A stretch of 64,000 bases of DNA from Patiria pectinifera (Eukaryota > Echinodermata > Asteroidea > Valvatida > Asterinidae). The translations under genes and the position numbers were made by a program. The stretch is from positions 3,797,770 through 3,861,769 of the forward strand of contig CM057142.1 in assembly GCA_029964075.1 (NCBI GenBank). The letters run 5' to 3'. The notes beneath the pieces were generated by a model. The model saw nothing but the letters and a program-made list of their open reading frames with translations. It was not told the DNA's origin and ran no database searches. This document shows positions 16,463 through 41,052 of this stretch, in pieces (the stretch's first letter is position 1; every line of letters starts with the position of its first letter).

Positions 16463-16962
16463 NNNNNNNNNNNNNNNNNNNNNNNNNNNNNNNNNNNNNN
16501 NNNNNNNNNNNNNNNNNNNNNNNNNNNNNNNNNNNNNNNNNNNNNNNNNNNNNNNNNNNNNNNNNNNNNNNNNNNNNNNNNNNNNNNNNNNNNNNNNNNN
16601 NNNNNNNNNNNNNNNNNNNNNNNNNNNNNNNNNNNNNNNNNNNNNNNNNNNNNNNNNNNNNNNNNNNNNNNNNNNNNNNNNNNNNNNNNNNNNNNNNNNN
16701 NNNNNNNNNNNNNNNNNNNNNNNNNNNNNNNNNNNNNNNNNNNNNNNNNNNNNNNNNNNNNNNNNNNNNNNNNNNNNNNNNNNNNNNNNNNNNNNNNNNN
16801 NNNNNNNNNNNNNNNNNNNNNNNNNNNNNNNNNNNNNNNNNNNNNNNNNNNNNNNNNNNNNNNNNNNNNNNNNNNNNNNNNNNNNNNNNNNNNNNNNNNN
16901 NNNNNNNNNNNNNNNNNNNNNNNNNNNNNNNNNNNNNNNNNNNNNNNNNNNNNNNNNNNNNN
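16463..16962. other. Assembly gap (500 N)
   Basis: Exactly 500 unknown bases. The first known base after it falls inside a Helitron-type repeat found again at 22,149, so the contig probably broke in the array and the true gap length may differ. Confidence 0.99.
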
Positions 16963-17803
16963 AGAGATTGATCTCAAATTTGGAAGGTATACAGAAAGGG
17001 GAGTGTTATAGATGGAAATTGATATGTCAAGGTCACGTGACCTTCAATTCCGGTTTTACCGGAAGTGGTAATTTTAGAACCCTATATCATATTTTATGAA
17101 TTATTAATCTGATTAGGTTGAAACTTCACATTAATACAAAGCTATATTGACAGATAATTATATTGCATTATTATTACTGTGCACTTAATTATTGTCATGT
17201 TATGACGTCATGAATATTTAATGAGGCAATCTTTACAGTCCTATAACTATAGAACCGTTTGACCGATTGATCTCAAACCTGGCAGGTATACACACTGGGA
17301 AGTGTTACAGATACAAATTGGTATGACCGGGTCATGTGACCTCTACTTCCGGTATCACCGGAAGTGTTAATGTAAGACCCTAATTAGTATATCTAATGAA
17401 TTAGACATTTGATTGGGTTGACACCTTATATTACTATTAAACAACATTAAAGGATAAATATGTAGCATTATTATTAATGGGCAGTTTAAAGTGTTTTGTT
17501 ATGATGTCATGAATATTTAATGAGGCAATCTTTATATTCCTTTAACTTTAAAACTTTTCGACTGATTGATCTCAAACTTGGTAAATAGATAAACAGGGAA
17601 GTGTTATGAATGAAAATGTGTATGTCAAGGTCATGTGACCCTTCCGGTCTTTACCGGAAGTGCAATCATTTAAGATAATATTTTCAATTTAAAAAGTTAA
17701 TTATACGTTTTTGAAAATCTTTACATTATTTTTTGCTATCTAACAGACAATCAAAAACAAGTTGGGAACAGCTCTGTGGTTGTTCAGTTACAACCACATC
17801 TAG
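16963..17803 (+). mobile_element. Array unit E0, A-type 3' part (left end lost in gap)
   Basis: Three subunits of about 298 bp start with GATTGATCTCAAAYYTGG at roughly 16967, 17265 and 17564. Each holds a GTCA(C/T)GTGACC box and a CCGGT..ACCGGAAGT pair. The unit ends with the hairpin TGTGGTTGT (17775-17783) / ACAACCACA (17790-17798) and CTAG 17800-17803. Confidence 0.75.
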
Positions 17804-20800
17804 TTGGCTTTTCCGCAAAGTTGCGGAAAAGCCTTTGTTTTTGTTCTGGTTTTTTTTTTGGCTTTTCCGCAAAGTTGCGGAAAAGCCTTTGTTTTTGTTC
17901 TGGTTTTTTTTTTTTTCTTTCTTCTTCTTCTTCTTCTTCTTCTTCTTCTTCTTCTTTTTGTTCCACTTCAAATGCCATTGACTTTGTGCACGTTTTTTCT
18001 CAGTGCCACTTTTGGCATTAATCTTTGCTATACATCATTCAAACTTAGCATAGTCATTGTCCCTATAGCAAAGATGTGTCCCGAAGATTGACGTCATGGT
18101 GACGTCATCGACTAATTTATTATAGATTTTTGAATATTTAATTTTTCCCATAGACTTTGCACACAGAAATTAAAAAAAAATTGTCGCTTTTCAAAGGGCA
18201 TTTTCGACTCTTTGCCAGTTATTCATTAACACCAATCTTTGTCCAAGCAAAGACCCTACTCCAAACAACATTGTGGAATGATGACGTCATGATGACGTCA
18301 TCCTATGTTTATTTATAGGCAATTAAATTGTGACACTTTTAATATTTAAAAATGCATAAGAAATCAACCGTACACGTCCGCAGCATTCTGTTGCCGGCAA
18401 GTGGTACAGTAGGTTGAGGTCTTCATTTCATTCAGTGTGCGTGCAATCACGTGACCCTTGCTTCCGGTCGAAAAAGGCCCAAACCGGAAGTGGCTTATTA
18501 TTTAAATATGGTAATAGGAATGAACTTGCTTTCAACGGTGTTAGTCTCTTGGCCGATAGTATTCTTCAAATCATCTACCGATGACGTCATGCAATCTTCG
18601 AGCGCCCTCTAGCGACAGGTTGAAAATTAGCAAACATGTATTTTGAATAGATGTCTGTGGCGAAGTTTGTCGGAATCGCTTAAATATTGGTGTATATGAT
18701 GACTTTGACCCACTTAAGACGTGTGCGAAGTTTTAGGCGAATGACGTCATCAGACCGGAAGTTATAATAAAAAGACCCTTTTTCATTTGAAAATTCCTGA
18801 AAAATCAACCATGGCAGTTTTTATATTTGTTTTTACTTTAGTTGTCGATTGAAGGGTAGGTCTAAAACATTTGAAAGTTTCGAGGCGATAAGCGAACTCG
18901 AACAACTCTGCGCACGCTTAAAACTTCACGTTGACAATACCTATGCTTCAAAACATGCACAGGACAGGACGTCCACAATGTACATACATGTACATGCACG
19001 TACGTTGTACATAGGCACATACATCGTATGTCAGTCAGCCTGCAGCGCACGTGTTGCTGAGGTCAAATCCTGTCCACAGTGACCGTTTTAGCCGATTTTC
19101 GGCTAACTTTGACAGATTGTATGTTCATGCATGCGCATAGACAGGGACGTATTATAGCACTTTTGGCATTAATCTTTGTCAGATATCATTGAAAGTTGGC
19201 ATAAGCATAGTCCCTATAGCCAAGATGTGTCCCGAAGAGTGACGTCATGGTGACGTCATCAAGTGATTTATTATGGATTTATAAATAATAATTAATTTTT
19301 CTCGTAGACTTTGTACACAGCTTTCTCCACAAGTCTTTCCCTATACAACACTGATATATCTTCCCGAGTAGTTCTGAACTTCGGCTGAGAATTACTATGA
19401 AAAGGAAAAAGAAATCGTATTTTTTTACGCCTGTCATTTGATTGAAAATATTCCCAAGAGTTAGAATAGCAAGTAATATTTTATAAAAATGTTTCAGTTT
19501 AAAGGCAAATCACGCATTTAAAGGTGCAGTTTTTCTGCTGTGGGGATTTGAACATATTGGCTTAGTACACGTGTTTAAGCCACCATTTTCATAACTTGGC
19601 GATCTGGAATCGTCATCAAAGTTACAGCCAAGGAAGACCCTCATACACAAATTATGCCAAGACTATGACGTCATGATGACGTCATCATCAAGTGATTTAT
19701 TATGGATTCATGAATAATTAATTTTTCTCATAGACTTTGTACACAGCTTTCTCCACAAGTCTTTTCCTATACAACACAGATATATCTTACTGAGTAGTTC
19801 TGAACTTCGGCCGAGAATTACTATGAGAAAGAAAAAGAAATCGTATTTTTTTACGTTTGCCATTTGATTGAAAATATTCCCAAGAGTCAGAATATCAAGT
19901 AATATTTTATAAAAATGTTTCAGTTTAAAGGCTAATCACGTATTTAAAGGTGCAGTTTTTCTGCTGTTGGATTTTTAACCCATTGACTTTGTACACGTTT
20001 TCAAGCCACCATTCTTATAACTTGTCGATCTGGAATCGTCATCAAAGTTACAGCCAAGAAAGACCCTTATACAAAAACTATGCCAAGACTATGACGTCAC
20101 GATGACGTCATCACCTAATTTTTTTATTGATTTTTGAAAATTTACGTACATATTGTGAAGTCTTATATCTACAGAAATGTAAGTCCGATTGGGTTGAAAC
20201 TTGGTATGTGGCTATACCAGGATGTGTTATAGATTAAAAATGAGGTGACGTCATGATGACGTCATCCTGAGATTTTATATGAATATTTATTTTTTTGGAC
20301 CTTTTAGCCATATCTCCCGAACGCAACATGCAAAATGCAAAATTCTTTTTTGCATTTGGTCTGTTATGTTATAGCTGTTCGCACAAAACTTGAAAAATGT
20401 GTGACGTCATCATGACGTCATCAAAATGCGATTTTTCAAAACTCATATAAGGAAAGATCCAATTGTCATGAAACTTGGTGGGTAGGTAGTTAATCATACT
20501 AGTATGCAAAGTTCGAAGTGACGTCACGATGACGTCATCAAAACATTACAAAATATTTGTCGATTTTCAAAGTGCGTTTTCGACTCTTTGCCAGTAATTT
20601 ATTTAGATCGCTCTTTGTCCAAGCAAAGACCTTGTACACACGCACATACATCGTATTGCCGAGGTCAAATCCTGTCCACAGTGACCGTTTCAGCCGATTT
20701 TCGGCTAACTTTGAAAGATTTTATGTTCATTCATATTCAGGGCATATTATTGATTAAAAAAATCATAATGCGGAAAAGCCCTATGTTCTGTTGCAAACAG

Positions 20801-20814
20801 ACATAGATTTCTAG
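17804..20814 (+). mobile_element. Array unit E1, B-type Helitron-like element
   Basis: The 5' end has two copies of a 56-bp segment containing the palindrome GGCTTTTCCGC..GCGGAAAAGCC, then a T/CTT microsatellite. The body carries the paired TGACGTCA boxes, the CTCF-like core at 18602 and two diverged internal segments starting CATAGACTTTGTACAC. The 3' end has TGCGGAAAAGCC (20769-20780), the hairpin CTATGTTCTGTT..AACAGACATAG (20781-20806) and CTAG (20811-20814). The short frames inside are repeat-derived. Confidence 0.78.
17918..17957 (+). repeat. CTT microsatellite in E1
   Basis: About a dozen CTT units after a T run. The same tract in E1' (about 23,104-23,148) is longer, and shorter CTT tracts start E4, E5 and E6. 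Confidence 0.9.
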
Positions 20815-22989
20815 TTTTTCTTCTTTTTCTTTTTCCACTTTTCCCCATAGGTTTTGTACACGTTTTTATTCTACAAGCCACTTTGGCAATTATTTTAAAT
20901 CTGATCAACTTTAAACTCAACATAGTTATTAACCATCATCTGAGGAAGTGTCCCGAAACTTTTCGTCATGCTGACGTCATCACGTGATTTATTACAGAAT
21001 TTTGAATATTTAATTTTTCCCATAGACTTTCTACACAGAAATTAAAAAAAAAATGTTAATTTTCAGAGGGCATTTTCGACTCTTTGCAAGTAATTTATTT
21101 ACACCAATCTTTGTCCAAGCAAAGACCCTTATTCAAACAACATTGTGTAATGATGACGTCATGATGACGTCATCCGGTGATTAACTATAGGCAATTAAAA
21201 TGTTACACTTTTAATTTTCAAAAATGCATAAGAAATCAACCGTACGCGTCCGCAGCATTCTGTTGCCGGCAAGTGGTAGAGTAGGTTGAGGTCTTTATTT
21301 CATTTAGTGTGCGTGAAATCACGTGACCCTTGCTTCCGGTCGAAAAAGGCCCAAACCGGAAGTGGCTTATTATTTGAAAGTGGTAATAGATATGATCTTG
21401 CTTTCAATGGTGTTAGTCTCTTGGCTGATAGTATTCTTCAAATCATCTACCGATGACGTCATGCAATCTTCGAGCGCCCTCTAGCGACAGGTTGAAAATC
21501 TTTAAAAATGTATTTTGAATAGATGTCTGTGGCGAAGTTTGTCGGAATCGCCTAAATATTGGTGTATATGATGACCTTTACCCACTTAAGACGTGTGCGA
21601 AGTTTTAGGCGAATGACGTCACCAGACCGGAAGTTATAATGAAAAGACCCTTTTTCCTTAGAAAATTCCTAAAAAATCAAACCGTACAGATATAATCTTG
21701 AATTCCCCATTAAATGATAGCGTAAACATTTGCCTCAACAGTGCCAAGTTCCCAGCTTGTCAAATTGTTCACACAGTTACGCGGCGTCGGCAAAAAAATA
21801 CCGCGAAAGTTGCGGCAGAGAAAATAAAAAATGCCTACTCAACCAATGCAAGCCGCAAGTGTGTGCGTATACATTGACCAGATTCGGCATCGCCCGCTTC
21901 CCATAAACCACACACGCACGTGGTCGTGAGGAGCAGACCGACCAACAGGGTGACCGTTTTAGCCGAATTTCGGCTAAATTTGGCAGACTTTTTCGTAAAA
22001 AAACAAGTTTGACAGAAAATTTGACAGAATGGATTTTTTTGGCAGATTTCTGACAGAATCTTCAAAAATGGTTATTTTCACAATTACATAGCAAATTTGT
22101 GTATTGATAGACTCAATTTTTACAGCCTTATAACTATTGAACTATTTGAGAGATTGATCTCAAATTTGGAAGGTATACAGAAAGGGGAGTGTTATAGATG
22201 GAAATTGATATGTCAAGGTCACGTGACCTTCAATTCCGGTTTTACCGGAAGTGGTAATTTTAGAACCCTATATCATATTTTATGAATTATTAATCTGATT
22301 AGGTTGAAACTTCACATTAATACAAAGCTATATTGACAGATAATTATATTGCATTATTATTACTGTGCACTTAATTATTGTCATGTTATGACGTCATGAA
22401 TATTTAATGAGGCAATCTTTACAGTCCTATAACTATAGAACCGTTTGACCGATTGATCTCAAACCTGGCAGGTATACACACTGGGAAGTGTTACAGATAC
22501 AAATTGGTATGACCGGGTCATGTGACCTCTACTTCCGGTATCACCGGAAGTGTTAATGTAAGACCCTAATTAGTATATCTAATGAATTAGACATTTGATT
22601 GGGTTGACACCTTATATTACTATTAAACAACATTAAAGGATAAATATGTAGCATTATTATTAATGGGCAGTTTAAAGTGTTTTGTTATGATGTCATGAAT
22701 ATTTAATGAGGCAATCTTTATATTCCTTTAACTTTAAAACTTTTCGACTGATTGATCTCAAACTTGGTAAATAGATAAACAGGGAAGTGTTATGAATGAA
22801 AATGTGTATGTCAAGGTCATGTGACCCTTCCGGTCTTTACCGGAAGTGCAATCATTTAAGATAATATTTTCAATTTAAAAAGTTAATTATACGTTTTTGA
22901 AAATCTTTACATTATTTTTTGCTATCTAACAGACAATCAAAAACAAGTTGGGAACAGCTCTGTGGTTGTTCAGTTACAACCACATCTAG
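20815..22989 (+). mobile_element. Array unit E2, chimera of B-type 5' part and A-type 3' part
   Basis: To about 21,690 it follows the B-type unit (same CTCF-like core at 21474). It then has about 450 bp of sequence not in the B units, apart from the box GTGACCGTTTTAGCCGAA. From 22,149 it is the A-type module, nearly identical to 16,963-17,803, ending with the same hairpin and CTAG 22986-22989. Confidence 0.7.
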
Positions 22990-25900
22990 TTGGCTTTTCC
23001 GCAAAGTTGCGGAAAAGCCTTTGTTTTTGTTCTGGTTTTTTTTTTGGCTTTTCCGCAAAGTTGCGGAAAAGCCTTTGTTTTTGTTCTGGTTTTTTTTTTT
23101 TTTCTTTCTTCTTCTTCTTCTTCTTCTTCTTCTTCTTCTTCTTCTTCTTTTTGTTCCACTTCAAATGCCATTGACTTTGTGCACGTTTTTTCTCAGTGCC
23201 ACTTTTGGCATTAATCTTTGCTATACATCATTCAAACTTAGCATAGTCATTGTCCCTATAGCAAAGATGTGTCCCGAAGATTGACGTCATGGTGACGTCA
23301 TCGACTAATTTATTATAGATTTTTGAATATTTAATTTTTCCCATAGACTTTGCACACAGAAATTAAAAAAAAATTGTCGCTTTTCAAAGGGCATTTTCGA
23401 CTCTTTGCCAGTTATTCATTAACACCAATCTTTGTCCAAGCAAAGACCCTACTCCAAACAACATTGTGGAATGATGACGTCATGATGACGTCATCCTATG
23501 TTTATTTATAGGCAATTAAATTGTGACACTTTTAATATTTAAAAATGCATAAGAAATCAACCGTACACGTCCGCAGCATTCTGTTGCCGGCAAGTGGTAC
23601 AGTAGGTTGAGGTCTTCATTTCATTCAGTGTGCGTGCAATCACGTGACCCTTGCTTCCGGTCGAAAAAGGCCCAAACCGGAAGTGGCTTATTATTTAAAT
23701 ATGGTAATAGGAATGAACTTGCTTTCAACGGTGTTAGTCTCTTGGCCGATAGTATTCTTCAAATCATCTACCGATGACGTCATGCAATCTTCGAGCGCCC
23801 TCTAGCGACAGGTTGAAAATTAGCAAAAATGTATTTGGAATAGATGTCTGTGGCGAAGTTTGTCGGAATCGCTTAAATATTGGTGTATATGATGACTTTG
23901 ACCCACTTAAGACGTGTGCGAAGTTTTAGGCGAATGACGTCATCAGACCGGAAGTTATAATAAAAAGACCCTTTTTCATTTGAAAATTCCTGAAAAATCA
24001 ACCATGGCAGTTTTTATATTTGTTTTTACTTTAGTTGTCGATTGAAGGGTAGGTCTAAAACATTTGAAAGTTTCGAGGCGATAAGCGAACTCGAACAACT
24101 CTGCGCACGCTTAAAACTTCACGTTGACAATACCTATGCTTCAAAACATGCACAGGACAGGACGTCCACAATGTACATACATGTACATGCACGTACGTTG
24201 TACATAGGCACATACATCGTATGTCAGTCAGCCTGCAGCGCACGTGTTGCTGAGGTCAAATCCTGTCCACAGTGACCGTTTTAGCCGATTTTCGGCTAAC
24301 TTTGACAGATTGTATGTTCATGCATGCGCATAGACAGGGACGTATTATAGCACTTTTGGCATTAATCTTTGTCAGATATCATTGAAAGTTGGCATAAGCA
24401 TAGTCCCTATAGCCAAGATGTGTCCCGAAGAGTGACGTCATGGTGACGTCATCAAGTGATTTATTATGGATTTATGAATAATTAATTTTTCTCATAGACT
24501 TTGTACACAGCTTTCTCCACAAGTCTTTCCCTATACAACACTGATATATCTTACTGAGTAGTTCTGAAATTCGGCTGAGAATTACTATGAAAAGGAAAAA
24601 GAAATCGTATTTTTTTACGCCTGTCATTTGATTGAAAATATTCCCAAGAGTTAGAATAGCAAGTAATATTTTATAAAAATGTTTCAGTTTAAAGGCAAAT
24701 CACGCATTTAAAGGTGCAGTTTTTCTGCTGTGGGATTTTTAACCTATTGACTTTGTACACGTTTTCAAGCCACCATTTTCATAACTTGGCGATCTGGAAT
24801 CGTCATCAAAGTTACAGCCAAGGAAGACCCTCATACACAAATTATGCCAAGACTATGACGTCATGATGACGTCATCATCAAGTGATTTATTATGGATTCA
24901 TGAATAATTAATTTTTCTCATAGACTTTGTACACAGCTTTCTCCACAAGTCTTTTCCTATACAACACAGATATATCTTACTGAGTAGTTCTGAACTTCGG
25001 CCGAGAATTACTATGAGAAAGAAAAAGAAATCGTATTTTTTTACGTTTGCCATTTGATTGAAAATATTCCCAAGAGTCAGAATATCAAGTAATATTTTAT
25101 AAAAATGTTTCAGTTTAAAGGCTAATCACGTATTTAAAGGTGCAGTTTTTCTGCTGTTGGATTTTTAACCCATTGACTTTGTACACGTTTTCAAGCCACC
25201 ATTCTTATAACTTGGCGATCTGGAATCGTCATCAAAGTTACAGCCAAGAAAGACCCTTATACAAAAACTATGCCAAGACTATGACGTCACGATGACGTCA
25301 TCACCTAATTTTTTTATTGATTTTTGAAAATTTACGTACATATTGTGAAGTCTTATATCTACAGAAATGTAAGTCCGATTGGGTTGAAACTTGGTATGTG
25401 GCTATACCAGGATGTGTTATAGATTAAAAATGAGGTGACGTCATGATGACGTCATCCTGAGATTTTATATGAATATTTATTTTTTTGGACCTTTTAGCCA
25501 TATCTCCCGAACGCAACATGCAAAATGCAAAATTCTTTTTTGCATTTGGTCTGTTATGTTATAGCTGTTCGCACAAAACTTGAAAAATGTGTGACGTCAT
25601 CATGACGTCATCAAAATGCGATTTTTCAAAACTCATATAAGGAAAGATCCAATTGTCATGAAACTTGGTGGGTAGGTAGTTAATCATACTAGTATGCAAA
25701 GTTCGAAGTGACGTCACGATGACGTCATCAAAACATTACAAAATATTTGTCGATTTTCAAAGTGCGTTTTCGACTCTTTGCCAGTAATTTATTTAGATCG
25801 CTCTTTGTCCAAGCAAAGACCTTGTACACACGCACATACATCGTATTGCCGAGGTCAAATCCTGTCCACAGTGACCGTTTCAGCCGATTTTCGGCTAACT

Positions 25901-26004
25901 TTGAAAGATTTTATGTTCATTCATATTCAGGGCATATTATTGATTAAAAAAATCATAATGCGGAAAAGCCCTATGTTCTGTTGCAAACAGACATAGATTT
26001 CTAG
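22990..26004 (+). mobile_element. Array unit E1', near-identical copy of E1
   Basis: The sequence repeats 17804-20814 almost base for base at an offset of about 5.19 kb. Differences are the CTT microsatellite length and a cluster between about 19,280 and 19,580 of E1. Ends: hairpin 25971-25996, CTAG 26001-26004. Confidence 0.8.
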
Positions 26005-28925
26005 TTGGCTTTTCCGCAAAAAAGCGGAAAAGCCTTTCTTTTTGTTCTCATTTTTTTTCTTTCTTCTTCTTCTTCTTTTTGTCGCCTAAATCCCATAGAC
26101 TTTGTACACGTTTTTTCTCAGTGCCACTTTTGGTACTAATCTTTGTCATACATCATTCAAATTAAGCATAGTCATAGTCCTTATAGCAGAGATGTGCCCC
26201 GAAGAGTGACGTGATGGTGACGTCATCGACTAATTTATTATAGATTTTTGAATATTTAATTTGTCCCATAGACTTTGAACACAAAAATTAAGAAAAAAAT
26301 GTCGAATTTCAAAGGGCATTTTCGACTGTTTGCCAGTAATTCATTTATATCACTCTTTGTCCAAGCAAAGACCCTAATTCAAACAACATTGTGTAATGAT
26401 GACGTCATGATGACGTTATCAGGTGTTTATTTATAGGCAATTAAATTGTGACACTTTTAATATTTAAAAATGCATAAGAAATCAACCGTACGCGTCCGCA
26501 GCATTCTGTTGCCGGCAAGTGGTAGAGTAGGTTAAGGTCTTTATTTCATTCAGTGTACGTGAAATCACGTGACCCTCGCTTCCGGTCGAAAAAGGCCCAA
26601 ACCGGAAGTGGCTTATTATTTAAAAGTGGTAATAGAAATGAACTTGCTTTTAACGGTGTTAGTCTCTTGGCCGATAGTAGCCTTCAAAACATCTACCGAT
26701 GACGTCATGCAATCTTCGAGCGCCCTCTAGCGACAGGTTGAAAATTAGCAAAAATGTATTTTGAATAGATGTCTGTGGCGAAGTTTGTCGGAATCGCCTA
26801 AATAATGGTGTATATAATGACCTTGACCACCCTAAGACGTGTGCGAAGTTTTAGGCGAATGACGTCATCAGACCGGAAGTTATAATGTAAAAGACCCTTT
26901 TTCATTTGAAAATTCCTAAAAAATCAACCATGGCAGTTTTTATATTTGTTTTTACTTTAATTATTGATTGAAGGGTAGGTCTAAAACATTTCAAAGTTTC
27001 GAGGCGATAAGCGAACTCGAACATACCCTGCGCAAGCTTAAAACTTCACGTTGACAATACCTCTGCTTCAAAACATGCACAGGACAGGACGTCCACAATG
27101 TACATGTATATGCACGTACGTTGTACATAGGCACATACATCGTATGTCAGTCAGCCTGCAGCGCACGTGTTGCTGAGGTCAAATCCTGTCCACAGTGACC
27201 GTTTTAGCCGATTTTCGGCTAACTTTGACAGATTTTATGTTCATGCATGCGCATAGACAGGGACGTATTATAGCACTTTTGGCATTAATCTTCGTCAGAT
27301 ATCATTGAAAGTTGGCATAAACATAGTCCCTATAGCCAAGTTTTGTCCCGAAGAGTGCAACATGGTGACGTCTTCATGTGATTTATTATGGATTTATGAA
27401 TAATTAATTTTTCTCATAGACTTTGTACACAGCTTTCTCCACAAGTCTTTCCCTATACAACACTGATATATCTTACTGAGTAGTTCTGAACTTCGGCTGA
27501 GAATTACTATGAGAAGGAAAAAGAAATCGTATTTTTTACGCCTGTCATTTGATTGAAAATATTCCCAAGAGTTAGAATAGCAAGTAATATTTTATAAAAA
27601 TGTTTCAGTTTAAAGGAAAATCACGCATTTAAAGGTGCAGTTTTTCTGCTGTGGGATTTTTTAACTTATTGACTTTGTACACGTTTTCAAGCCACCATTT
27701 TCATAACTTGGCGATCTGGAATCGTCATCAAAATTACAGCCAAGGAAGACCCTCATACAAAAATTATGCCAAGGCTATGACATCATGATGACGTCTTCAT
27801 CAAGTGATTTATTATGGATTCATGAATAATTATTTTTTCTCATAGACTTTGTACACAGCTTTCTCCACAAGTCTTTTCCTATACAACACTGATATATCTT
27901 ACTGAGTAGTTCTGAACTTCGGCCGAAAATTACTATGAGAAGGAAAAAGAAATCGTAGTTTTTTACGTTTGCCATTTGATTGAAAATATTCCCAAGAGTC
28001 AGAATATCAAGTAATATTTTATAAAAATGTTTCAGTTTAAAGGCAAATCACGTATTTAAAGGTGCAGTTTTTCTGCTGTGGGATTTTTAACCCATTGACT
28101 TTACACGTTTTCAAGCCACAATTTTTATAACTTGGCAATCTGGAATCGTCATCAAAGTTACAGCCAAGGAAGACCCTCATACACAAATTATGCCAAGACT
28201 ATGACGTCACGATGACGTCATCACCTAATTTTTTTATTGATTTTTGAAAATTTACGTACATATTGTGAAGTCTTATATCTACAGAAATGTAAGTCCGATT
28301 GGGTTGAAACTTGGTATGTGGCTATACCAGGATGTGTTATAGATTAAAAATGAGGTGACGTCATGATGACGTCATTCTGAGATTTTATATGAATATTTAT
28401 TTTTTTGGACCTTTTAGCCATATCTCCCGAACGCAACATGCAAAATGCAAAATTCTTTTTTGCATTTGGTCTGTTATGTAATAGCTATTCGCACAAAACT
28501 TGAAAAATGTGTGACGTCATCATGACGTCATCAAAATGCGATTTTTCAAAACTCATATTAGGAAAGGTCAAATTGTCATGAAACTTGGTGGGTAGGTAGT
28601 TAATCATACTAGTATGCAAAGTTCGAAGTGACGTCACGATGACGTCATTAAAAATTTAAAAATAATTGTCGATTTTCAAAGTGCGTTTTCGACTCTTTGC
28701 CAGTAATTTATTAAGAGCACTCTTTGTCCAAGCAAAGATCTTGTACACACGCACATACATAGTATTGCCGAGGTCAAATCCTGTCCACAGTGACCGTTTT
28801 AGCCGATTTTTCGGGTAACTTTGACATATTTTATGTTCATGCATATTCAAGGCATATTATTGATTAAAAAAAATTATAATGCGGAAAAGCCCTATGTTCT
28901 GTTGCAAACAGACATAGACCTCTAG
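26005..28925 (+). mobile_element. Array unit E3, B-type
   Basis: Begins TTGGCTTTTCCGC with palindrome arms 26007-26017 and 26024-26034. CTCF-like core at 26720. Ends with hairpin 28892-28917 and CTAG 28922-28925. It is several per cent diverged from E1. Confidence 0.78.
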
Positions 28926-31802
28926 TTTTCTTTCTTCTTCTTCTTCTTTTTGTCGCCAAAATCCCATAGACTTTGTACACGTTTTTTCTCAGTGCCACTT
29001 TTGGCATTAATCTTTGTCATACATCATTCAAAGTTAGCATAGTCATAGTCCTTATAGCAGAGATGTGCCCCGAAGAGTGACGTCATGATGACGTCATCGA
29101 CTAATTTATTATAGATTTTTGAATATTTAATTTTTCCCATAGACTTTGTACACAAAATTTTAAAAAAAATTGTCGGTTTTCAAAGGACATTTTCGACTGT
29201 TTGCCAGTAATTCATGTACACCAAACTTTGTTAAAGCAAAGACCCTTATTCAAACAACATTGTGTAATGATGACGTCATGATGACGTCATCCTGTGTTTA
29301 TTTATAGGCAATTAAATTGTGACACTTTTAATATTTAAAAATGCATAAGAAATCAACCGTACGCGTCCGCAGCATTCTGTTGCCGGCAAGTGGTAGAGTA
29401 GGTTGAGGTCTTCATTTCATTCAGTGTGCGTGCAATCACGTGACCCTTGCTTCCGGTCGAAAAAGGCCCAAACCGGAAGTGGCTTATTATTTGAAAGTGG
29501 TAATAGAAATGAACTTGCTTTCAACGGTGTTAGTCTCTTGGCCGATAGTATTCTTCAAATCATCTACCGATGACGTCATGCAATCTTCGAGCGCCCTCTA
29601 GCGACAGGTTGAAAATTAGCAAAAATGTATTTTGAATAGATGTCTGTGGCGAAGTTTGTCGGAATCGCCTAAATATTGGTGTATATGATGACCGTGACCC
29701 ACTTAAGACGTGTGCGAAGTTTTAGGCGAATGACGTCATCAGACCGGAAGTTATAATAAAAGACCCTTTTTCATTTGAAAATTCCTGAAAAATCAACCAT
29801 GGCAGTTTTTATATTTGTTTTTACTTTAATTGTCGATTGAAGATTAGGTCTAAAACATTTCAAAGTTTCGAGGCGATAAGCGAACTCGAACATACCCTGC
29901 GCACGCTTAAAACTTCACGTTGACAATACCTCTGCTTCAAAACATGCACAGGACAGGACGTCCACAATGTACATGTACATGCACGTACCTTGTACATAGG
30001 CACATACATCGTATGTCAGTCAGCCTGCAGCGCACGTGTTGCTGAGATCAAATCCTGTCCACAGTGACCGTTTTAGCCGATTTTCGGCTAACTTTGACAG
30101 ATTTTATGTTCATGCATGCGCATAGACAGGGACGTATTATAGCACTTTTGGCATTAATCTTTGTCAGATATCATTGAAAGTTGGCATAAGCATAGTCCCT
30201 ATAGCAAAGATGTGTCCCGAAGAGTGACGTCATGGTGACGTCATCAAGTGATTTATTATGGATTTATGAATAATTAATTTTTCTCATAGACTTTGTACAC
30301 AGCTTTCTCCACAAGTCTTTCCCTATACAACACTGATATATCTTACTGAGTAGTTCTGAACTTCGGCTGAGAATTACTATGAGAAGGAAAGAGAAATCGT
30401 ATTTTTACGCTCCGTCATTTGATTGAAAATATTCCCAAGAGTTTGAATAGCAAGTAATATTTTATAAAAATGTTTCAGTTTAAAGGAAAATCACGCATTT
30501 GAAGGTGCAGTTTTTCTGCTGTGGGATTTTAACCTATTGATTTTGTACACGTTTTCAAGCCACCATTTTTATAACTTGGCGATCTGGAATCGTCATCAAA
30601 GTTACAGCCAAGGAAGACCCTCATACAAAAATTATGCCAAGACTATATGACATCATGATGACGTCATCATTAAGTGATTTATTATGGATTCATGAATAAT
30701 TAATTTTTCTCATAGACTTTGTACACTTTCTCCACAAGTCTTTTCCTATACAACACTGATATATCTTACTGAGTAGTTCTGAACTTCGGCCGAGAATTAC
30801 CATGAGAAGGAAAAAGAAATCGTATTTTTTTACGTTTGTCATTTGATTGAAAATATTCCCAAGAGTCAGAATATCAAGTAATATTTCATAAAAATGTTTC
30901 AGTTTGAAGGCAAATCACGTATTTAAAGGTGCAGTTTTTGTGCTGTGGGATTTTTAACCCATTGACTTGGTACACGTTTTCAAGCCACCATTTTTATAAC
31001 TTGGCGATCTGGAATCGTTATCAAAGTTACAGCCAAGGTAGACCCTCATACAAAAATTATGCCAAGACTATGATGTCACGATGACGTCATCACCTAATTT
31101 TTTTATTGATTTTTGAAAATTTACGTACTTATTGTGAAGTCTTATATCTACAGAAATGTAAGTCCGATTGGGTTGAAACTTGGTATGTGGCTATACCAGG
31201 ATGTGTTATAGATTAAAAATGAGGTGACGTCATGATGACGTCATCATGAGATTTTATATAAATTATGCAATTTTTGGACCTTTTAGCCATATCTCCCGAA
31301 CGAAACATGCAAAATGCAAAATTCTTTTTGCATTTGGTCTGTTATTTAATAGATAGACGCACAAAACTAGAAAATGTGTGACGTCATCATGACGTCATCA
31401 AAATGCGATTTTTCAAAACTCATATAAGGAAAGGTCCATTGTCATGAAACTTGGTGGGTAGGTAGTTAATCATACTAGTATGCAAAGTTCGAAGTGACGT
31501 CAGGATGACGTCATCAAAAAAATTAAAAATATATTTGTCGATTTTCAAAGTGCGTTTTCGACTCTTTGCCAGTAATTTATTTATAATTTATTTATCACTC
31601 TTTGTCCAAGCAAAGACCTTGTACACACGCACATACATCGTATTGCCGAGAACAAATCCTGTCCACTGTGACCGTTTTAGCCGATTTTCGGCTAACTTTG
31701 ACAGATGTTATGTTCATGCATATTCCGGTCATATTATTGATCAAAAAAAATTATCATGCGGAAAAGCCCTATGTTCTGTTGCAAACAGACATAGACCTCT
31801 AG
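28926..31802 (+). mobile_element. Array unit E4, B-type
   Basis: Begins directly in a pyrimidine tract (TTTTCTTTCTTC). CTCF-like core at 29591. Ends with hairpin 31769-31794 and CTAG 31799-31802. It lacks the 5' palindrome of E1 and E3. Confidence 0.78.
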
Positions 31803-34496
31803 TTTTTCTTTCTTCTTCTTCTTCTTTTTGTCGCCTAAATCCCATAGACTTTGTACACGTTTTTTCTCAGTGCCACTTTTGACATTTATCTTTGTCATAC
31901 GTCATTCAAAGTTAGCATAGTCATAGTCCTTATAGCAGAGATGTGCCCCGAAGAGTGACGTCATGGTGACGTCATCGACTAATTTATTACGGATTTTTGA
32001 ATATTTAATTTTTCCCATAGACTTTGTACACAGAAATTTAAAAAAAATTGTCGCTTTTCAAAGGGCATTTTCGACTCTTTGCCAGTTATTCATTTACACC
32101 ACTCTTTGTCCAAGCAAAGACCCTAATTCAAACAACATTGTGGAATGATGACGTCATGATGACGTCATCCTGTGTTAATTTATAGGCAATTAAATTGTGA
32201 CACTTTTAATATTTAAAAATGCATAAGAAATCAACCGTACGCGTCCGCAGCATTCTGTTGCCGGCAAGTGGTAGAGTAGGTTGAGGTCTTCATTTCATTC
32301 AGTGTGCGTGCAATCACGTGACCCTTGCTTCCGGTCGAAAAAGGCCCAAACCGGAAGTGGCTTATTATTTGAAAGTGGTAATAGAAATGAACTTGCTTTT
32401 AACGGTGTTAGTCTCTTGGCCGATAGTATTCTTCAAATCATCTACCGATGACGTCATGCAATCTTCGAGCGCCCTCTAGCGACAGGTTGAAAATTAGCAA
32501 AAATGTATTTTGAATAGATGTCTGTGGCGAAGTTTGTCGGAATCGCCTAAATATTGGTGTATATGATGACCTTGACCCACTTAAGACGTGTGCGAAGTTT
32601 TACGCGAATGACGTCATCAGACCGGAAGTTATAATAAAAAGACCCTTTTTCATTTGAAAATTCCTGAAAAATCAACCATGGCAGTTTTTATATTTGTTTT
32701 TTCTTTAATTGTCGATTGAAGGTTAGGTCTAAAACATTTCAAAGTTTCGAGGCGATAAGCGAACTCGAACATTAAAAAACGCTTAAAACTTCACGTTGAC
32801 AATACCTCTGCTTCAAAACATGCACAGGACAGGACGTCCACAATGTACATGTACATGCACGTACGTTGTACATAGGCACATACATCGTATGTCAGTCAGC
32901 CTGCAGCGCACGTGTTGCTGAGATCAAATCCTGTCCACAGTGACCGTTTTAGCCGATTTTCGGCTAACTTTGACAGATTTTATGTTCATGCATGCGCATA
33001 GACAGGGACGTATTATAGCACTTTTGGCATTAATCTTTGTCAGATATCATTGAAAGTTAGCATAAGCATAGTCCATATAGCAAGGATGTGTCCCGAAGAG
33101 TGACGTCATGGTGACGTCATCAAGTGATTTATTATGGATTTATGAATAATTAATTTTTCTCATAGACTTTGTACACAGCTTTCTCCACAAGTCTTTCCCT
33201 ATACAACACTGATATATCTTACTGAGTAGTTCTGGACTTCGGCTGAGAATTACTATGAGAAGGAAAAAGAAATCGTATTTTTTACGCCTGTCATTTGATT
33301 CAAAATATTCCCAAGAGTGAGAAAAGCAAGTAATATTTTATAAAAATGTTTCAGTTTAAAGGAAAATCACGCATTTAAAGGTGCAGTTTTTCTGCTGTGG
33401 GATTTTTAACCTATTGACTGTACACGTTTTCAAGCCACCATTTTTATAACTTGGCGATCTGGAATCTTCATCAAAGTTACAGCCAAGGAACACCCTCATA
33501 CAAAAATTATGCCAAGACTATGACATCATGATGATGTCATCATCAAGTGATTGATTATGGTTTCATGAATAATTAATTTTTCTCATAGACTTTGTACACA
33601 GCTTTCTTCACAAGTCTTTTCCTATACAACGCTGATATATCTTACTGAGTAGTTCTGAACTTTGGCCGAAAATTACTATGAGAAGGAAAAAGAAATCGTA
33701 TTTTTTTACGTTTGCCATTTGATTGAAAATATTCCCAAGAGTCAGAATATCAAGTAATATTTTATAAAAATGTTTCAGTTTAAAGGCAAATCACATATTT
33801 AAAGGTGCAGTTTTTCCGGTGTGGGATTTTTAACCCATTGACTTTGTACACGTTTACAAGCCACCATTTTTATAACTTGGAGATCTGGAATCGTCATCAA
33901 ACATACAGCCAAGGAAGACCCTCATACAAAAATTATGCCAAGACTACGACGTCACGATGACGTCATCACCTGATTTTTTTTATTGATTTTTGAAAATTTA
34001 CGTGCATATTGTGAAGTCTTATATCTACAGAAATGTAAGTCCGATTGGGTTGAAACTTGGTATGTGGCTATACCAGGATGTGTTATAGATTAAAAATGTT
34101 ATAGATTAAAAAAGGTGACGTCATGATGACGTCATCCTAAGATTTTATATGAATATTTGATTTTCTTGACCTTTTAGCCATATCGCCCGAACGCAACATG
34201 CAAAATGCAAAATTCTTTTTTCCATTTGGTCTGTTAGGTAATAGGTATTCGCACAAAACTTGAAAAATGTGTGATCTCATCAAAATGCAATTTTCCAAAA
34301 CTCATATGTGGAAAGGTCCAATTGTCATGAAACTTGTTGGGTAGGTAGATAATCAGACTAGTATGCAAAGTCCGAAGTGACGTCACGATGACGTCATCAG
34401 ATTTTATGTTCATGCATATTCAGGGCATATTATTGATTAAAAAATCATAATGCGGAAAAGCCCTGTGTTCTGTTGCAAACAGACATAGACCTCTAG
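31803..34496 (+). mobile_element. Array unit E5, B-type with internal deletion near its 3' end
   Basis: Length 2,694 bp. CTCF-like core at 32469. Around 34,270-34,400 the unit lacks one TGACGTCA pair and most of the segment that other units carry between the last pair and the terminal region. Ends with hairpin 34463-34488 and CTAG 34493-34496. Confidence 0.76.
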
Positions 34497-37400
34497 TTTC
34501 TTTCTTCTTCTTCTTCTTCTTCTTCTTCTTCTTCTTCTTTTTGTCGCCTAAATCCCATAGACTTTGTACACGTTTTTTCTACACGCCACTTTTGACATTT
34601 ATATTTGTCATACGTCATTCAAAGTTAGCATAGTCATAGTCCTTATAGCAGAGATGTGCCCCGAAGAGTGACGTCATGATGACGTCATCGACTAATTTAT
34701 TATAGATTTTTGAATATTTAATTTTTCCCATAGACTTTGTACACAAAATTTAAAAAAAAATTGTCGGTTTTCAAAGGACATTTTCGACTGTTTGCCAGTA
34801 ATTCATTTACACCAAACTTTGTTAAAGCAAAGACCCTAATTCAAACAACATTGTGTAATGATGACGTCATGATGACGTCATCAGGTGTTTATTTATAGGC
34901 AATTAAATTGTGACACTTTTAATATTTAAAAATGCATAAGAAATCAACAGTACGCGTCCGCAGCATTCTGTTGCCGGCAAGTGGTAGAGTAGGTCAAGGT
35001 CTTTATTTCTTTCAGTGCGCGTGAAATCACGTGACCCTTGCTTCCGGTCGAAAAGGCCCAAACCGGAAGTGGCTTATTATTTGAAAGTGGTAACAGAAAT
35101 GAACTTGCTTTCAACGGTGTTAGTCTCTTGGCCAATAGTATTCTTCAAATCATCTAACAATGACGTCATGCAATCTTCAAGCGCCCTCTAGCGACAGGTT
35201 GAAAATTAGCAAAAATGTATTTTGAATAGATGTCTGTGGCGAAGTTTGTCGGAATCGCCTAAATATTGGTGTATATAATGACCTTGACCACCTTAAGACG
35301 TGTGCGAAGTTTTAGGCGAATGACGTCATCAGACCGGAAGTTATAATGAAAAGACCCTTTTTCATTTGAAAATTCCTGAAAAATCAACCATGGCAGTTTT
35401 TATATTTGTTTTTACTTTAATTATTGATTGAAGGGTAGGTCTAAAACATTTCAAAGTTTCGAGGCGATAAGCGAACTCGAACATACCCTGCGCACGCTTA
35501 AAACTTCACCTTGACAATACCTCTGCTTCAAAACATGCACAGGACAGGACGTCCACAATGTACATGTACATGTACATGCACGTACGTTGTACATAGGCAC
35601 ATACATCGTATGTCAGTCAGCCTGCAGCGCACGTGTTGCTGAGGTCAAATCCTGTCCACAGTGACCGTTTTAGCCGATTTTCGGCTAACTTTGACAGATT
35701 TTATGTTCATGCATGCGCATAGACAGTGACGTATTATAGCACTTTTGGCATTAATCTTTGTCAGATATCATTGAAAGTTGACATAAGCATAGTCCCTATA
35801 GCCAAGATGTGTCCCGAAGAGTGACGTCATGGTGACGTCATCAAGTGATTTATTATGGATTTATGAATAATTGATTTTTCTCATAGACTTTGTACACAGC
35901 TTTCTCCACAAGTCTTTCCCTATACAAACTGATATATCTTACTGAGTAGTTCTGAACTTCGGCTGAGAATTACTATGAGAAGGAAAAAGAAATCGTATTT
36001 TTTTACGCCTGTCATTTGATTGAAAATATTCCTAAGAGTTAGAATAGCAAGTAATATTTTATAAAAATGTTTCAGTTTAAAGGAAAATCACGCATTTAAA
36101 GGTGCAGTTTTTTTGCTGTGGGATTTTTAACCTATTGACTTTTCCCCTTTTTTAAGCCACCATTTTCATAACTTGGCGATCTGGAATCGTCATCAAAGTT
36201 ACAGCCAAGGAAGATCCTCATACAAAAATTATACCAAGACTACGACATCATGATGACGTCATCTTCAAGTGATTTATTATGGATTCATGAATAATTAATT
36301 TTTCTCATAGACTTTGTACACATCTTTTCCACAAGTCTTTTCCTATACAACACTGATATATCTTACTGAGTAGTTCTGAACTTCGGCTGAGAATTATACG
36401 GAAGCTTAAAGTGACCATCCGAGTTTCCAAGTTTCCGAGATAATTTATCTCGGAACGACGGAATACTGAGATAAAAACATGTCTTTTCGTGATATCGCAT
36501 CTCGGAAAAACGTCTTTCCCGGAATTCGTATCTCAGAAAGACGTCTTTGCCCAATATCACATCACGGAATGACATCTTTCCCAGAAATCGTATCTCAGAA
36601 AGACGTCTTTCCCTGATGTCGTATCTCGGAAAGACATCTTCTCCTGATATCGTATCTCGGAGAGACGTCTTTCCTTGATATCGTATCTCGGAAAGATGTC
36701 ATTCCCTGATATCGTTTCTCAGAAAGACGTCTTTCCGATATATGATATCAAGGAAAGACGTCTTTCCGAGATGATATATGAGAGAAAGACGTCTTAAGAT
36801 GTTATATCAGGTGAAAACGTCTTTTCAAGATAAGATATTAGAGAAAGAACGTCTTTCCGAGATGAAAGACGTCTTTCCGAGATACAATATCAGGGGGAAA
36901 CGTCTTTCTGAGATAAGATATGAGAGAAAGACGTCTTTCCGCCAGGGAAAGACGTCTTTCCGGGATATCATATCAAGGAAAGACGTCTTTCTGAGATGAT
37001 ATCAGAGAAAGACGTCTTTCCGAGATGTTATATCTAGGAAAGACGTCTTTCAGAGATACGATATCAAGGAAAGACGTCTTTCCGAGATGATATAAGAGAA
37101 AGACGTCTTTCCGAGATGTTATATCAGGAAAAGATGTCCTTCCGAAATGCAATATCAGTGAAAGCCGTCTTTCCGAGATACCATATCAGGGAAAGACGTC
37201 TTTCCGAGATACGATATCAGGAAAAGACGTCTTTCCGAGATACCATATCAGGGAAAGACGTCTTTCCAAGACACGATATCAGGGAAACACGTCATAAATA
37301 TCTTAGTAATCCATCTTTCCGAGATAAATCATCAAAGAAACGTGGAAACTCGAATGGTCACTTTAAGCTTCCGTAGAATTACTATGAGAAGGAAAAAGAA

Positions 37401-38374
37401 ATCGTATTTTTTACGTTAACCATTTGATTGAAAATATTCCCAAGAGTCAGAATATCAAGTAATATTTTATAAAAATGTTTCAGTTTAAAGGCAAATCACG
37501 TATTTAAAGGTGCAGTTTTTCTGCTGTTGGGTTTTAACCCATTGACTTTGTACACGTTTTCAAGCCACCATTTTTATAACTTGGCGATCTGGAATCGTCA
37601 TCAAAGTTACAGCCAAGGAAGACCCTCATACAAAAATTATGCCAAGACTATGACGTCACGATGACGTCATCACCTATTTTTTTTTATTGATTTTTGAAAA
37701 TTTACGTACATATTGTGAAGTCTTATATCTACAGAAATGTAAGTCCGATTGGGTTGAAACTTGGTATGTGGCTATACCAGGAAGTGTTATAGATTAAAAA
37801 TGAGCTGACGTCATGATGACGTCATCCTGAGATTTTATATGAATATTTATTTTTTTGACCTTTTAGCCATATCTCCCGAATGCAACATGCAAAATGCAAA
37901 ATTCTTTTTTGCATTTGGTCTGTTATGTAATAGCTATTCGTACGAAACTTGAAAAATGTGTGACGTCATCATGACGGAATCAAAATGCCATTTTTCAAAA
38001 CTCATATAAGGAAAGGTCCAATTGTCATGAAACTTGGGGGGTAGGTAGTTAATCATACTAGTATGCAAAGTTCGAAATGACGTCACGATGACGTCATCAA
38101 CAATTTAAAAATAATTGTCGATTTTCAAAGTGCGTTTTCGACTCTTTGCCAGTAATTTATTTAGATCACTCTTTGTCCAAGCAAACACCTTGTACACACG
38201 CACATACATCGTATTGCCGAGGTGAAATCCTGTTCACAGTGACCGTTTTAGCTGATTTTTCGGCTAACTTTGACAGATTTTATGTTCATGCATATTCAGG
38301 GCATATTATTGATGAAAAAAAATCATAATGCGGAAAAGCCCTATGTTCTGTTGCAAACAGACATAGATCTCTAG
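34497..38374 (+). mobile_element. Array unit E6, B-type, interrupted by a foldback transposon
   Basis: Without the 979-bp insertion at 36,397-37,375 it is about 2.9 kb, like its neighbours. CTCF-like core at 35181. Ends with hairpin 38341-38366 and CTAG 38371-38374. Confidence 0.78.
36397..37375. mobile_element. 979-bp foldback transposon made of AAAGACGTCTTT palindromes
   Basis: Terminal inverted repeats of 33 bp (36397-36429, 37343-37375; one mismatch) start TACGGAAGCTTAAAGTGACC. GAATTA is duplicated at 36391-36396 and 37376-37381; uninterrupted array units have it once at this place. The interior is a long series of the perfect palindrome GAAAGACGTCTTTC, alternating with GAGAT(A)-GATATC-type spacers. 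The arrangement is itself inverted around about 36,740. There is no transposase. Confidence 0.88.
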
Positions 38375-39946
38375 TTTCTTTTTCTTTTCTCTTTCAGACT
38401 CTTCTCCATAGGCTTTGTACACGTTTTTTCTTCAGCAAGGGCACTTTGGCACTTTCTTAAATTGCATCAACCTCATACTTGGCACACACTTAGACCACCA
38501 TCCACAGATGGTCCTAGAAGAAATTCGTAATCATGACGTCATCAAGTGTCAAGTTACGTAACATTAAAGGTGCATTTTTTGTCCATAGGGTTTGTACACG
38601 TTCTTTTCTCCATAGGGTTTGTACACGTTCTTTTCTCCATAGGTTTTGTACACGTTCTTTTCTCCATAGGGTTTGTACACGTTCTTTTCTCCATAGGGTT
38701 TGTACACGTTCTTTTCTCCATAGGGTTTGTACACGTTCTTTTCTCCATAGGCATTGTGCACGTTGTTTTCTCCATAGGCTTTGTACCCATGGGGTCGGAC
38801 AACTCGACCGTTATCCAACTTGACATTTTGACAGCGTGCGCGTGCATGCCTTGCCGCCCTACAGCTGGCCAGGTCCCCGCGCACTCTACGCGGTACAGTC
38901 ATGATGCCACAGATTATGCGGCTTACATAAATGTGACGAACTTGTAGTTGGGTATGTGAGTTGGGATAATCATGATTTATCAGAAGTTAGCAACTTTAAA
39001 GAATTTCTTAAATGTTAATGTGGGATTTTTGGGGATTTGTTCAAGTGCGCCACGTTAGGAACGCTGGAAAGAATTCCATATAAGCCTCCACCTCTATGGG
39101 CCATGACAGGAAACGTCAAAGTATTTTTAAAGAAAATCTTGATTTTTTCCCCTCCTAAATTTCTGTTTCTTCGTCAGATTTACAACTTTTGGTACTTTTC
39201 AAGTCATATATAGGAAAATAACTGGAGTCCGTTTATGGAATTCTTTCCACGACGTCGTTAAATTTAATTCCCTTCTCGTCTGCTCAGTACTATTGGTATT
39301 TTCACTCCCAACATAGTTGAACACATTTCGTTTTTCCTACTTCAAATATAGACACCAGAAATAAGTTGCTAAATATAGGTACACTTTGACACTTTCCTAA
39401 ATCTATCCTCGACCCGCTATCATCATCTGCACACCTGGGTATGTCCATAAATAAGGGGTCCAAAAGTGTGACATTTTTGGTGTCCCTGTTACACCGGACC
39501 TGTTAATTTGCCATTCAAGTGTCAATAAAAATGACTTCACACTATTTTTCATTTGTTTACCAGGTAGTTTGCTTTACATAATCACTCTTAGAATCAGAGA
39601 CATGTGTCCTGAATTACAAAATCTTACACAAGTCAGATGTAACTCGGACACCAAAATTGGACCCTAAATTTATGGAATCACCCACCTACATGTACGCTTT
39701 GCACGCGCACCCATTCCCAAACGCAAAGAAAAGAGGACTGCGCACACATTGAACCACGTGTATTTAGGACGTCTGACATAAATCGACTTCACACACTTGG
39801 CACACACGGCAAAAACTTGGAATCCCCACACAAAGGTTCTGGGTTTGATAGCCGCCGATGGCCACGTCAATCTTTTTCATTCAAAGACAGAAAAAACACC
39901 GAAACAGCTCGGTGTTTGTTTACCTACAAACACAACGTCCGTCTAG
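38375..39946 (+). mobile_element. Array unit E7, different Helitron-like family
   Basis: Starts TTTCTTTTTC after the previous CTAG and contains a 27-bp minisatellite. Ends with CCGAAACAGCT, the hairpin GTGTTTGT (39912-39919) / ACAAACAC (39926-39933) and CTAG 39943-39946. The central part is single-copy in the window. Confidence 0.62.
38582..38795 (+). repeat. 27-bp minisatellite, about 8 copies
   Basis: The unit is TCCATAGGGTTTGTACACGT followed by TCTTTTC, with scattered changes in the last copies. Because 27 is a multiple of 3 it yields open frames in several phases (HRVCTRSFL repeats), which are not a gene. Confidence 0.9.
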
Positions 39947-41052
39947 TTTTTTTTTTTTCTCCTTTTTCAGACTTTTTCTCCATAGGTTTAACACACGTTT
40001 CTTCTACAAGTCCACTTTGCCACTTTTTTAAATCCGATTGATTTCAGACTTGGTACATACTTAGACCACCACCCACAGATGGTCCTAGAAGAAATTTGTG
40101 ATCATGACGTCATCAGGTGTCAGGTTACATCAAATTAAAGATGCATTTTTCCCCATATGTTTTGTACACGTTTTAAAACACACCAGTTTGGCATCTTCGT
40201 AAATCCGATCGACTTTAAACTTAATTCATACTTAGACCACCACCCACAGATGGTTCTAGACGAAATTCGTGATCGTGACGTCATCAAGTGTCAGGTTACG
40301 TCACATTAAAGATGTATATTTCCCCATAGGGTTTGTACATGTATTAAAACGCTCCATTTCGGCACTTTCGTAAATCCGATCGACGTTACACTTGGTACAC
40401 ACTTAGACCATCACCCACAGATGGTCCTAGAAGAAATTTGTGATCGTGACGTCATCAGGTGTTGGGTTACGTCACATTAAAGATGCGTTTTTCCCCATAT
40501 GTTTTGTACACGTTTTAAAACACTCCACTTTGGCACCTTCGTAAATCCGATCGACCTCAGTCTTGATACATTTTTAGACCACCACCCAAAGATGGTCCTA
40601 GAAGAAATGCGCGATCGTGACGTCATCAGGTGTTGGGTTACATCACATTAAAGATGCATTTTTCCCCATAGGGTTTGTACACGTTTTAAAACACTCTACT
40701 TTGGCACTTTTGTAAATTATGCGATCGACGTTAGACCTGGTACACACTAAGACTACCACCCAAAGATGGTCCTAGAAGAAATTCGTGATCGTACCAATGC
40801 CGAGATGGGTTATAGATGAAAATTCATGTGATGTCATCATCAAATGTCATGTGACGTCCCTTAAAGGGGCATTTTGTTCTTCATAGGCCTATATTTACAG
40901 ACCTATATGTTCGATTTGGTTATAACTTGACATGTACGTATAATGTGCTGTTATAGATGACATTGTTAGTGACGTCACTGATTGTTCATCACGTGCACAG
41001 AGTATTTTGAATATCCGAAACAGCTTGTGTTTGTCCACAAACACATCTCTAG
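39947..41052 (+). mobile_element. Array unit E8, Helitron-like with about 172-bp internal repeats
   Basis: At least four internal repeats carry GATCRTGACGTCATCA at about 40,097, 40,269, 40,441 and 40,613, each preceded by ACAGATGGTCCTAGA-like sequence and GTTTTGTACACGT. The 3' end has CCGAAACAGCT, the hairpin TGTGTTTGT (41026-41034) / ACAAACACA (41037-41045) and CTAG 41049-41052, followed by a T run. Confidence 0.7.

Follow-up and report, generated by a model that had tools for sequence, protein, structure and literature searches.

What process lines up ten transposon-like units head to tail, each beginning directly where the previous one ends, in a single block of an echinoderm genome? The block stands within a 64,000-nucleotide stretch of the sea star Patiria pectinifera (GenBank assembly GCA_029964075.1, contig CM057142.1, positions 3,797,770 to 3,861,769 of the forward strand), which we call the window and whose full length was analysed. 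A first-pass annotation, made from the letters of the window alone, had described a 24-kb head-to-tail array of Helitron-like elements and had offered two mechanisms for it, rolling-circle replication with missed termination and repeated insertion beside an existing 3′ end. Our analysis indicates that the array is very probably a stack of non-autonomous HINE/Helentron-like transposons of four families, built by nested self-insertion into the tract that separates the 5′ head of an older copy from its body. This reading builds on the end structure of the units, their T target, the sites at which older copies are split to leave headless bodies, one mirror-ordered cluster elsewhere in the genome, and the divergence of the units from one another. 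Nested self-insertion would explain the head-to-tail order without faulty rolling-circle copying.

The ten units run from the edge of an assembly gap to position 41052 (Table 1). Each closes with a hairpin and CTAG followed by T (hereafter CTAG-T), and each next unit begins directly after it, as had been annotated. In a fixed test (a hairpin arm of at least 6 bp ending no more than 12 nt from CTAG, with T next), nine of the 15 CTAG-T occurrences within the array were positive and the remaining six negative, while the tenth unit end lies at the array edge, where the script cannot score it. Outside the array the count was 0 of 15, and 100 simulated sequences with matched dinucleotide make-up gave a mean of 0.64 positives and a maximum of three. 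The ends fall into four families, A to D, and an inverted copy of a head arm is present in every 3′ module (GGCTTTTCCGC in B, AGCTGTTCCC in A, AGCTGTTTCGG in C and D). Heads of the A type and of the C/D type were found at other loci.

The end structure supports an assignment to non-autonomous rolling-circle transposons with HINE/Helentron-like anatomy rather than to canonical Helitrons. The class named in the first-pass annotation thus holds at the level of rolling-circle elements and has to be moved within it. Of the canonical (Helitron1) marks, the 3′ CTRR behind a hairpin is present, as CTAG closes 10 of 10 ends. The 5′ TC is absent, the 5′ ends reading TTGGC... or T...AGCTG..., and insertion between A and T was not found: the right-hand neighbour is T in all 55 readable copies outside the window, and the left-hand neighbour is T instead of A in the two flanks read (on C20 and C4). 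Of the Helentron/HINE marks, subterminal inverted repeats (5′ copy at 2-4 nt and palindromic, 3′ copy at about 38-60 nt) occur, with the GGC of the head beginning 2 nt past CTAG in units 2, 4 and 5 and the 3′ arm starting 44 nt (B), 39 nt (A), 47 nt (C) or 37 nt (D) before the last base; these 3′ distances are about 10 nt less from the arm's other edge, and the match to the published range is approximate. A 3′-terminal palindrome, a microsatellite (the TTC tract) and central tandem repeats (426, 299 and 171 bp) are likewise found. Insertion is at TT in a T-rich target, with TT past CTAG in 13 of 13 flanks that match no element and T runs finishing the left flanks on C20 and C4. T runs on either side would mask short target duplications, and none longer was seen by eye at C4 or C20.

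Copies elsewhere in the 613.5-Mb genome were sought with the last 100 bases of one B and one A unit. A first look gave 1644 and 175 candidates, of which forty were scored per query, and for each query 30 loci were retrieved. Four of these 60 loci were the window's own and 56 lay elsewhere, 55 of them readable (L076 lacks the terminal CTAG). The first-pass annotation had held that solo copies ending otherwise than at CTAG-T would speak against it; in the part of this check that was run, all 55 end at CTAG-T. Past CTAG, 32 continue into a headless body, ten into a head and 13 into sequence that matches none of the window's units. The headless bodies begin inside the pyrimidine tract that separates head and body of intact copies, just as units 3 and 6-10 of the window start within their T/C tract. 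One position of the split is preferred: among B-type hosts outside the window, it leaves exactly five T in 10 of 13, and the guests in split B-type hosts include both A and B. Since the bodies of these ten five-T hosts are 91-98% alike, they are different copies, the pair L043/L045 (99.4%) excepted. Unsplit counterparts also exist. At L062 an A copy has head, tract and body continuous, its body being 99.4-99.5% like the split A body in L042. On C20 stands a solo B copy, with a single head, a single 3′ end and no unit match in either flank, its middle being unread.

These sites bear on the second mechanism that had been proposed, in which a new copy lands on the T after an older CTAG. A head stands next in 10 of the 55 copies elsewhere, as it does after units 1, 3 and 4 (the heads of 2, 4 and 5), and some of those ten could be insertions of this kind. 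Insertion beside a 3′ end cannot, however, yield headless bodies, which account for 32 of the 55 copies and six units of the window, and some head-first joints still carry a remnant of tract ahead of the head (L038 and L041, which belong to the ten, and also L098), which points to insertion into a tract again. We therefore regard it as an unlikely origin for the array. The idea of repeated insertion survives but its place changes, the commonest target seen being the pyrimidine tract behind an older 5′ head; that a guest's CTAG abuts an old body is then a by-product of tract insertion.

Nested self-insertion would proceed as follows. An intact copy opens with its palindromic 5′ head, after which come the T/C-rich tract and a body that is rich in repeats and non-coding; the 3′ module, made up of the inverted head-arm copy, the hairpin and CTAG, closes it. 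New copies would enter between two T, very often in the T/C tract between an older copy's head and body, so that the old head would remain upstream and the old body, now headless, would sit after the guest's CTAG. After repeated rounds, heads would be stacked in front of headless bodies whose order mirrors theirs, and the whole would resemble a head-to-tail tandem array. Guests may at times retain extra heads, and multi-headed copies appear to move as units. In the window, an [A B] pair would in addition have been duplicated once, with a 5.19-kb period. The heads that are missing from the window's older units, of types A, B and C/D, would be expected inside the gap at 16463-16962, where they presumably lie.

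Headless bodies in mirror order after the heads are the prediction of nested self-insertion, and missed termination does not give such an order. A cluster on the minus strand of C4 has it. Between two flanks stand three heads, in the order AAB, and then three bodies, in the order BAA, each body closing with CTAG; that a host-type head would lie upstream of the guest head was predicted ahead of retrieving that stretch. The left flank finishes in a T run, the first headless A body is 1339 bp long, the right flank starts from TTGTTC, and neither flank matches the window's units. The cluster was read as three pieces, leaving about 1005 bp of the B body and 155 bp of the last A body unread. The lengths expected from unit positions (110/1113 in unit 7 and 232/388 in L062) are 1002 and 155 bp, so the unread stretches fit uninterrupted elements and nothing else fits there. 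In a second cluster, on C7 (L089), three B heads precede three B bodies, of which two are headless; its right end is unread. Among 118 exact heads (27 B and 91 A, both sets extending to about 7.9 Mb on C7, against genome-wide exact matches of 109 and 403), 23 chains were counted, each two to six heads long, and five of these mix families (AAB, ABB, AAAAAB, AAB and AB).

In the first of the two mechanisms proposed earlier, replication runs past the 3′ terminator, or a circle is replicated repeatedly, and head-to-tail copies arise in one event. This is the published account of tandem Helitron arrays, those of bat and silkworm being ascribed to bypassed termination (PMC4067079), and of plant arrays (PMC12628747). 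The [A B][A B] duplication of the window might have arisen in this way, its one visible joint falling at CTAG-T. Near-identical units, each starting at its head, should however result from one event, whereas adjoining units here come from different families, aligned stretches of the B units are about 91-96% alike (units 2 and 4 as a pair excepted), and head stacks precede headless bodies in mirror order. No head stack before the headless bodies of other families would be expected from missed termination, and as the main cause of the array it finds no support and seems highly improbable to us.

Growth by segmental tandem duplication and unequal crossing over, in the manner of a satellite, was weighed against the divergence of the units. 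Identities to copies elsewhere (best over at least 1000 bp) were compared with those to other units of the array (at least 800 bp, leaving aside the match between units 2 and 4). They came to 98.6% elsewhere versus 95.6% in the array for unit 4, 96.3% versus 95.7% for unit 5 (a narrow margin), 97.3% versus 95.8% for unit 6, 97.8% versus 94.6% for unit 7 and 98.8% versus 95.8% for unit 8; the outside set is larger and was picked by similarity to the window's ends, so that these margins are no test statistic. Units 3, 9 and 10 reach 99.8%, 98.8% and 99.5% with copies elsewhere. An array made in one event would be expected to show the opposite order of identities. Because units 4-8 are nearer to copies elsewhere, the array looks like stacked independent insertions rather than an amplified satellite.

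One direct duplication is nevertheless plain. Units 1 and 2 together differ from units 3 and 4 at 28 of 3859 columns, with a 5.19-kb period, and units 1 and 3 are identical over 841 bp. Most substitutions between the two pairs fall in a patch at 19283-19576, which reflects either conversion or a faulty assembly close to the contig end, and the duplication itself is either recent or an assembly effect beside the gap. This is what speaks for segmental duplication. Against it stand the closer identity of the other B units to copies elsewhere (narrowly so for unit 5) and a family order along the array that is not periodic, and we judge it quite improbable as an account of the whole. Local amplification as the main cause was set aside on the former ground, and the satellite-like character noted in the first-pass annotation finds support in the 5.19-kb duplication only. 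Compound transposition of a B-C pair, suggested by L050, was also rejected, as the B of L050 is no nearer to unit 8 than that of L051, which precedes another family.

Several observations weigh against nested self-insertion or narrow its base. No head is seen in the window for units 3 and 6-10, and the 16,462 bases left of the gap contain no paired head arms. An extra B head stands before unit 2 (at 17804), yet the next headless body is of family A (unit 3), which breaks typed nesting; two-headed B elements moving as a unit, or the 5.19-kb duplication, would explain it, and double heads 97-99% like those of unit 2 occur at several other places. The 56 copies elsewhere were chosen as top matches to two ends from the window and do not sample the genome at random, and there are mutually dependent copies among them (for example L043/L045, L046/L047, L080/L081 and L083/L084/L087). 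Only the cluster on C4 was read out to both flanks, with its two unread stretches. In the C7 cluster the element end expected in L102 is absent, and its last body has to be the shortest of the three. Typed-head tests at L090, L091, L093, L094, L096 and L103 did not reach the expected host head, and the stretch retrieved at L092 contained neither a head nor an element end. On C13, C3, C9, C22, C11, C7 and C21, the host head lay beyond the retrieved stretch, an extra headless unit stood upstream, or (C9) there was no head or end. Some multi-head stacks could also have arisen otherwise.

A further proposal, which we put forward tentatively and think rather doubtful, is that the head-body tract is an evolved landing pad that steers new insertions into the family's own kind at a near-fixed base. 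Were this true, the families could accumulate without hitting genes, each guest would gain an extra upstream head, and heads and bodies would follow a bracket grammar recording the order of insertion. Nested self-insertion has consequences of its own. The mirror order of typed heads and bodies distinguishes it from missed termination in a genome assembly and yields a relative sequence of insertions, a block that looks like a satellite can form without amplification, and nested stacks may account for assembly breaks at such loci.

Self-insertion and multi-headed Helitrons have already been published; the typed mirror order and the preferred tract site are new, no description of the former having been found in the literature on Helitron/Helentron nesting and tandem arrays, in a coverage of partial texts outside which most subscription papers lie. 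The nearest relatives are the HINE/DINE-1 elements, non-autonomous Helentrons which share with the present families palindromic subterminal inverted repeats near the 5′ end and about 40 nt before the 3′ end, a 3′ palindrome, a microsatellite with central tandem repeats, a T-rich TT target and a lack of coding capacity (PMC4067079). They differ in that all four families here end in CTAG and stack in the tract often enough to produce mirror-ordered arrays. The proto-Helentron of Phytophthora infestans shares the 5′ TT and 3′ CTAG ends, but is coding and inserts between A and T, whereas the left neighbour here is T in the two flanks read (PMC4067079). Cg_HINE of the Pacific oyster, which inserts with no target duplication, is likewise a non-autonomous Helentron with satellite-like central repeats and T-rich targets; the available part of its description presents dispersed elements and does not mention mirror-ordered stacks (PMC7492417).

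Other precedents concern the stacking itself. FoHeli in Fusarium has several short 5′ termini and one 3′ terminus, ascribed to self-insertion, and for three tandem copies in Metarhizium the same paper leaves undecided between double 5′ insertion and circle replication (PMC5148889). The present case differs from FoHeli in its typed families, in one cluster that closes in mirror order and in the preferred site within the tract. Nesting is also given as the origin of multiple termini in maize helitrons, which have CTAGT 3′ ends in another host and whose worked example has multiple 3′ termini (PMC3288121). In many plant arrays a single 3′ end goes with several 5′ ends (Xiong et al., 2016, as told in PMC12628747).

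Proteins that could mobilise these families were sought in the genome, which has 148 Helitron_like_N matches. OTU genes have been reported in Helentrons (PMC4067079), and here, for 58 of 96 OTU matches, a Rep domain lies downstream on the same strand at a distance of 1.5-4.5 kb (a count made with 103 of the 148 Rep places), while DUF6570 precedes Rep in five of seven Rep proteins scanned. No Rep-fused endonuclease was shown among the 150 of 922 candidates scored in a search that was swamped. In 20 Rep loci, covering 1.5 kb either side of the Rep domain, there was no head pair, and no Rep element was tied by its termini to families A-D. OTU-type Rep proteins are present in the genome and are candidates for the mobilising enzyme. 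Rep places are crowded on C7, a 44.9-Mb contig with 57 of the 103 counted, and this contig may be heterochromatic or represent a sex chromosome.

Table 1. Layout of the array and its parts in the window (positions count from the first letter of the window).
Feature	Position	Strand	Remark
Assembly gap, 500 N	16463-16962	.	No paired head arms left of the gap within the window
Unit 1, family A	16963-17803	+	Hairpin and CTAG-T end; 5′ part lost in the gap
Unit 2, family B	17804-20814	+	Complete, two heads
Two 54-bp heads of unit 2	17804-17913	+	5′ subterminal palindrome GGCTTTTCCGC...GCGGAAAAGCC and T-run; 54 bp x 2.0, 100%
Central tandem repeat, family B	19240-20113	+	426 bp x 2.1
Unit 3, family A	20815-22989	+	Headless body, starting within its T tract
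Unit 4, family B	22990-26004	+	Complete, two heads at 22990-23099
Example 3′ module, family B	25960-26004	+	GCGGAAAAGCC head-arm copy from 44 nt before the last base, hairpin, CTAG-T
Unit 5, family B	26005-28925	+	Complete, one head at 26007-26034
Unit 6, family B	28926-31802	+	Headless
Unit 7, family B	31803-34496	+	Headless
Unit 8, family B	34497-38374	+	Headless, with satellite insert at 36397-37375
Unit 9, family C	38375-39946	+	Headless
Unit 10, family D	39947-41052	+	Headless; array end, then T-run and non-array sequence
Central tandem repeat, family D	40011-40792	+	171 bp x 4.6

Two details of the layout differ from the first description. Position 16963, given there as the start of the array, is the edge of the 500-N gap, so unit 1 is cut. 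The six B units had been put at 2.7-3.0 kb, which fits five (2.69-3.02 kb); unit 8 measures 3.88 kb because a hairpin satellite lies within it. This palindromic satellite is 979 bp long, is made of 31/62-bp units and has the inverted ends TACGGAAGCTTAAAGTGACCAT. Its 3′ part aligns at 98.5% or more with B copies elsewhere (L034, L050 and L051), which suggests that it characterises a B subfamily and did not insert recently.

Three short motifs, which we take to be transcription-factor-like, are concentrated in the array, with counts there versus the rest of the window of 106 versus 4 for TGACGTCA, 22 versus 0 for CCGGAAGT and 11 versus 1 for CACGTGAC; each averages less than one in simulated sequence. 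Selective conservation of the TGACGTCA sites was dropped as an idea, as 280 of 2000 random window sets were equally invariant. Three A copies elsewhere (L083, L084 and L087) stand before a near-identical flank resembling the end of an intron with an exon behind it. Two of these copies are on C14, no more than about 130 kb from the window, and the three are perhaps one insertion carried along by a duplicated gene family. Outside the array, short tandem repeats occur in the window at 62947-63460 (CGCGACTC 8-mers in 200-bp units) and 15248-16185 (GACTCGACTCGACTCGA-rich 33-mers).

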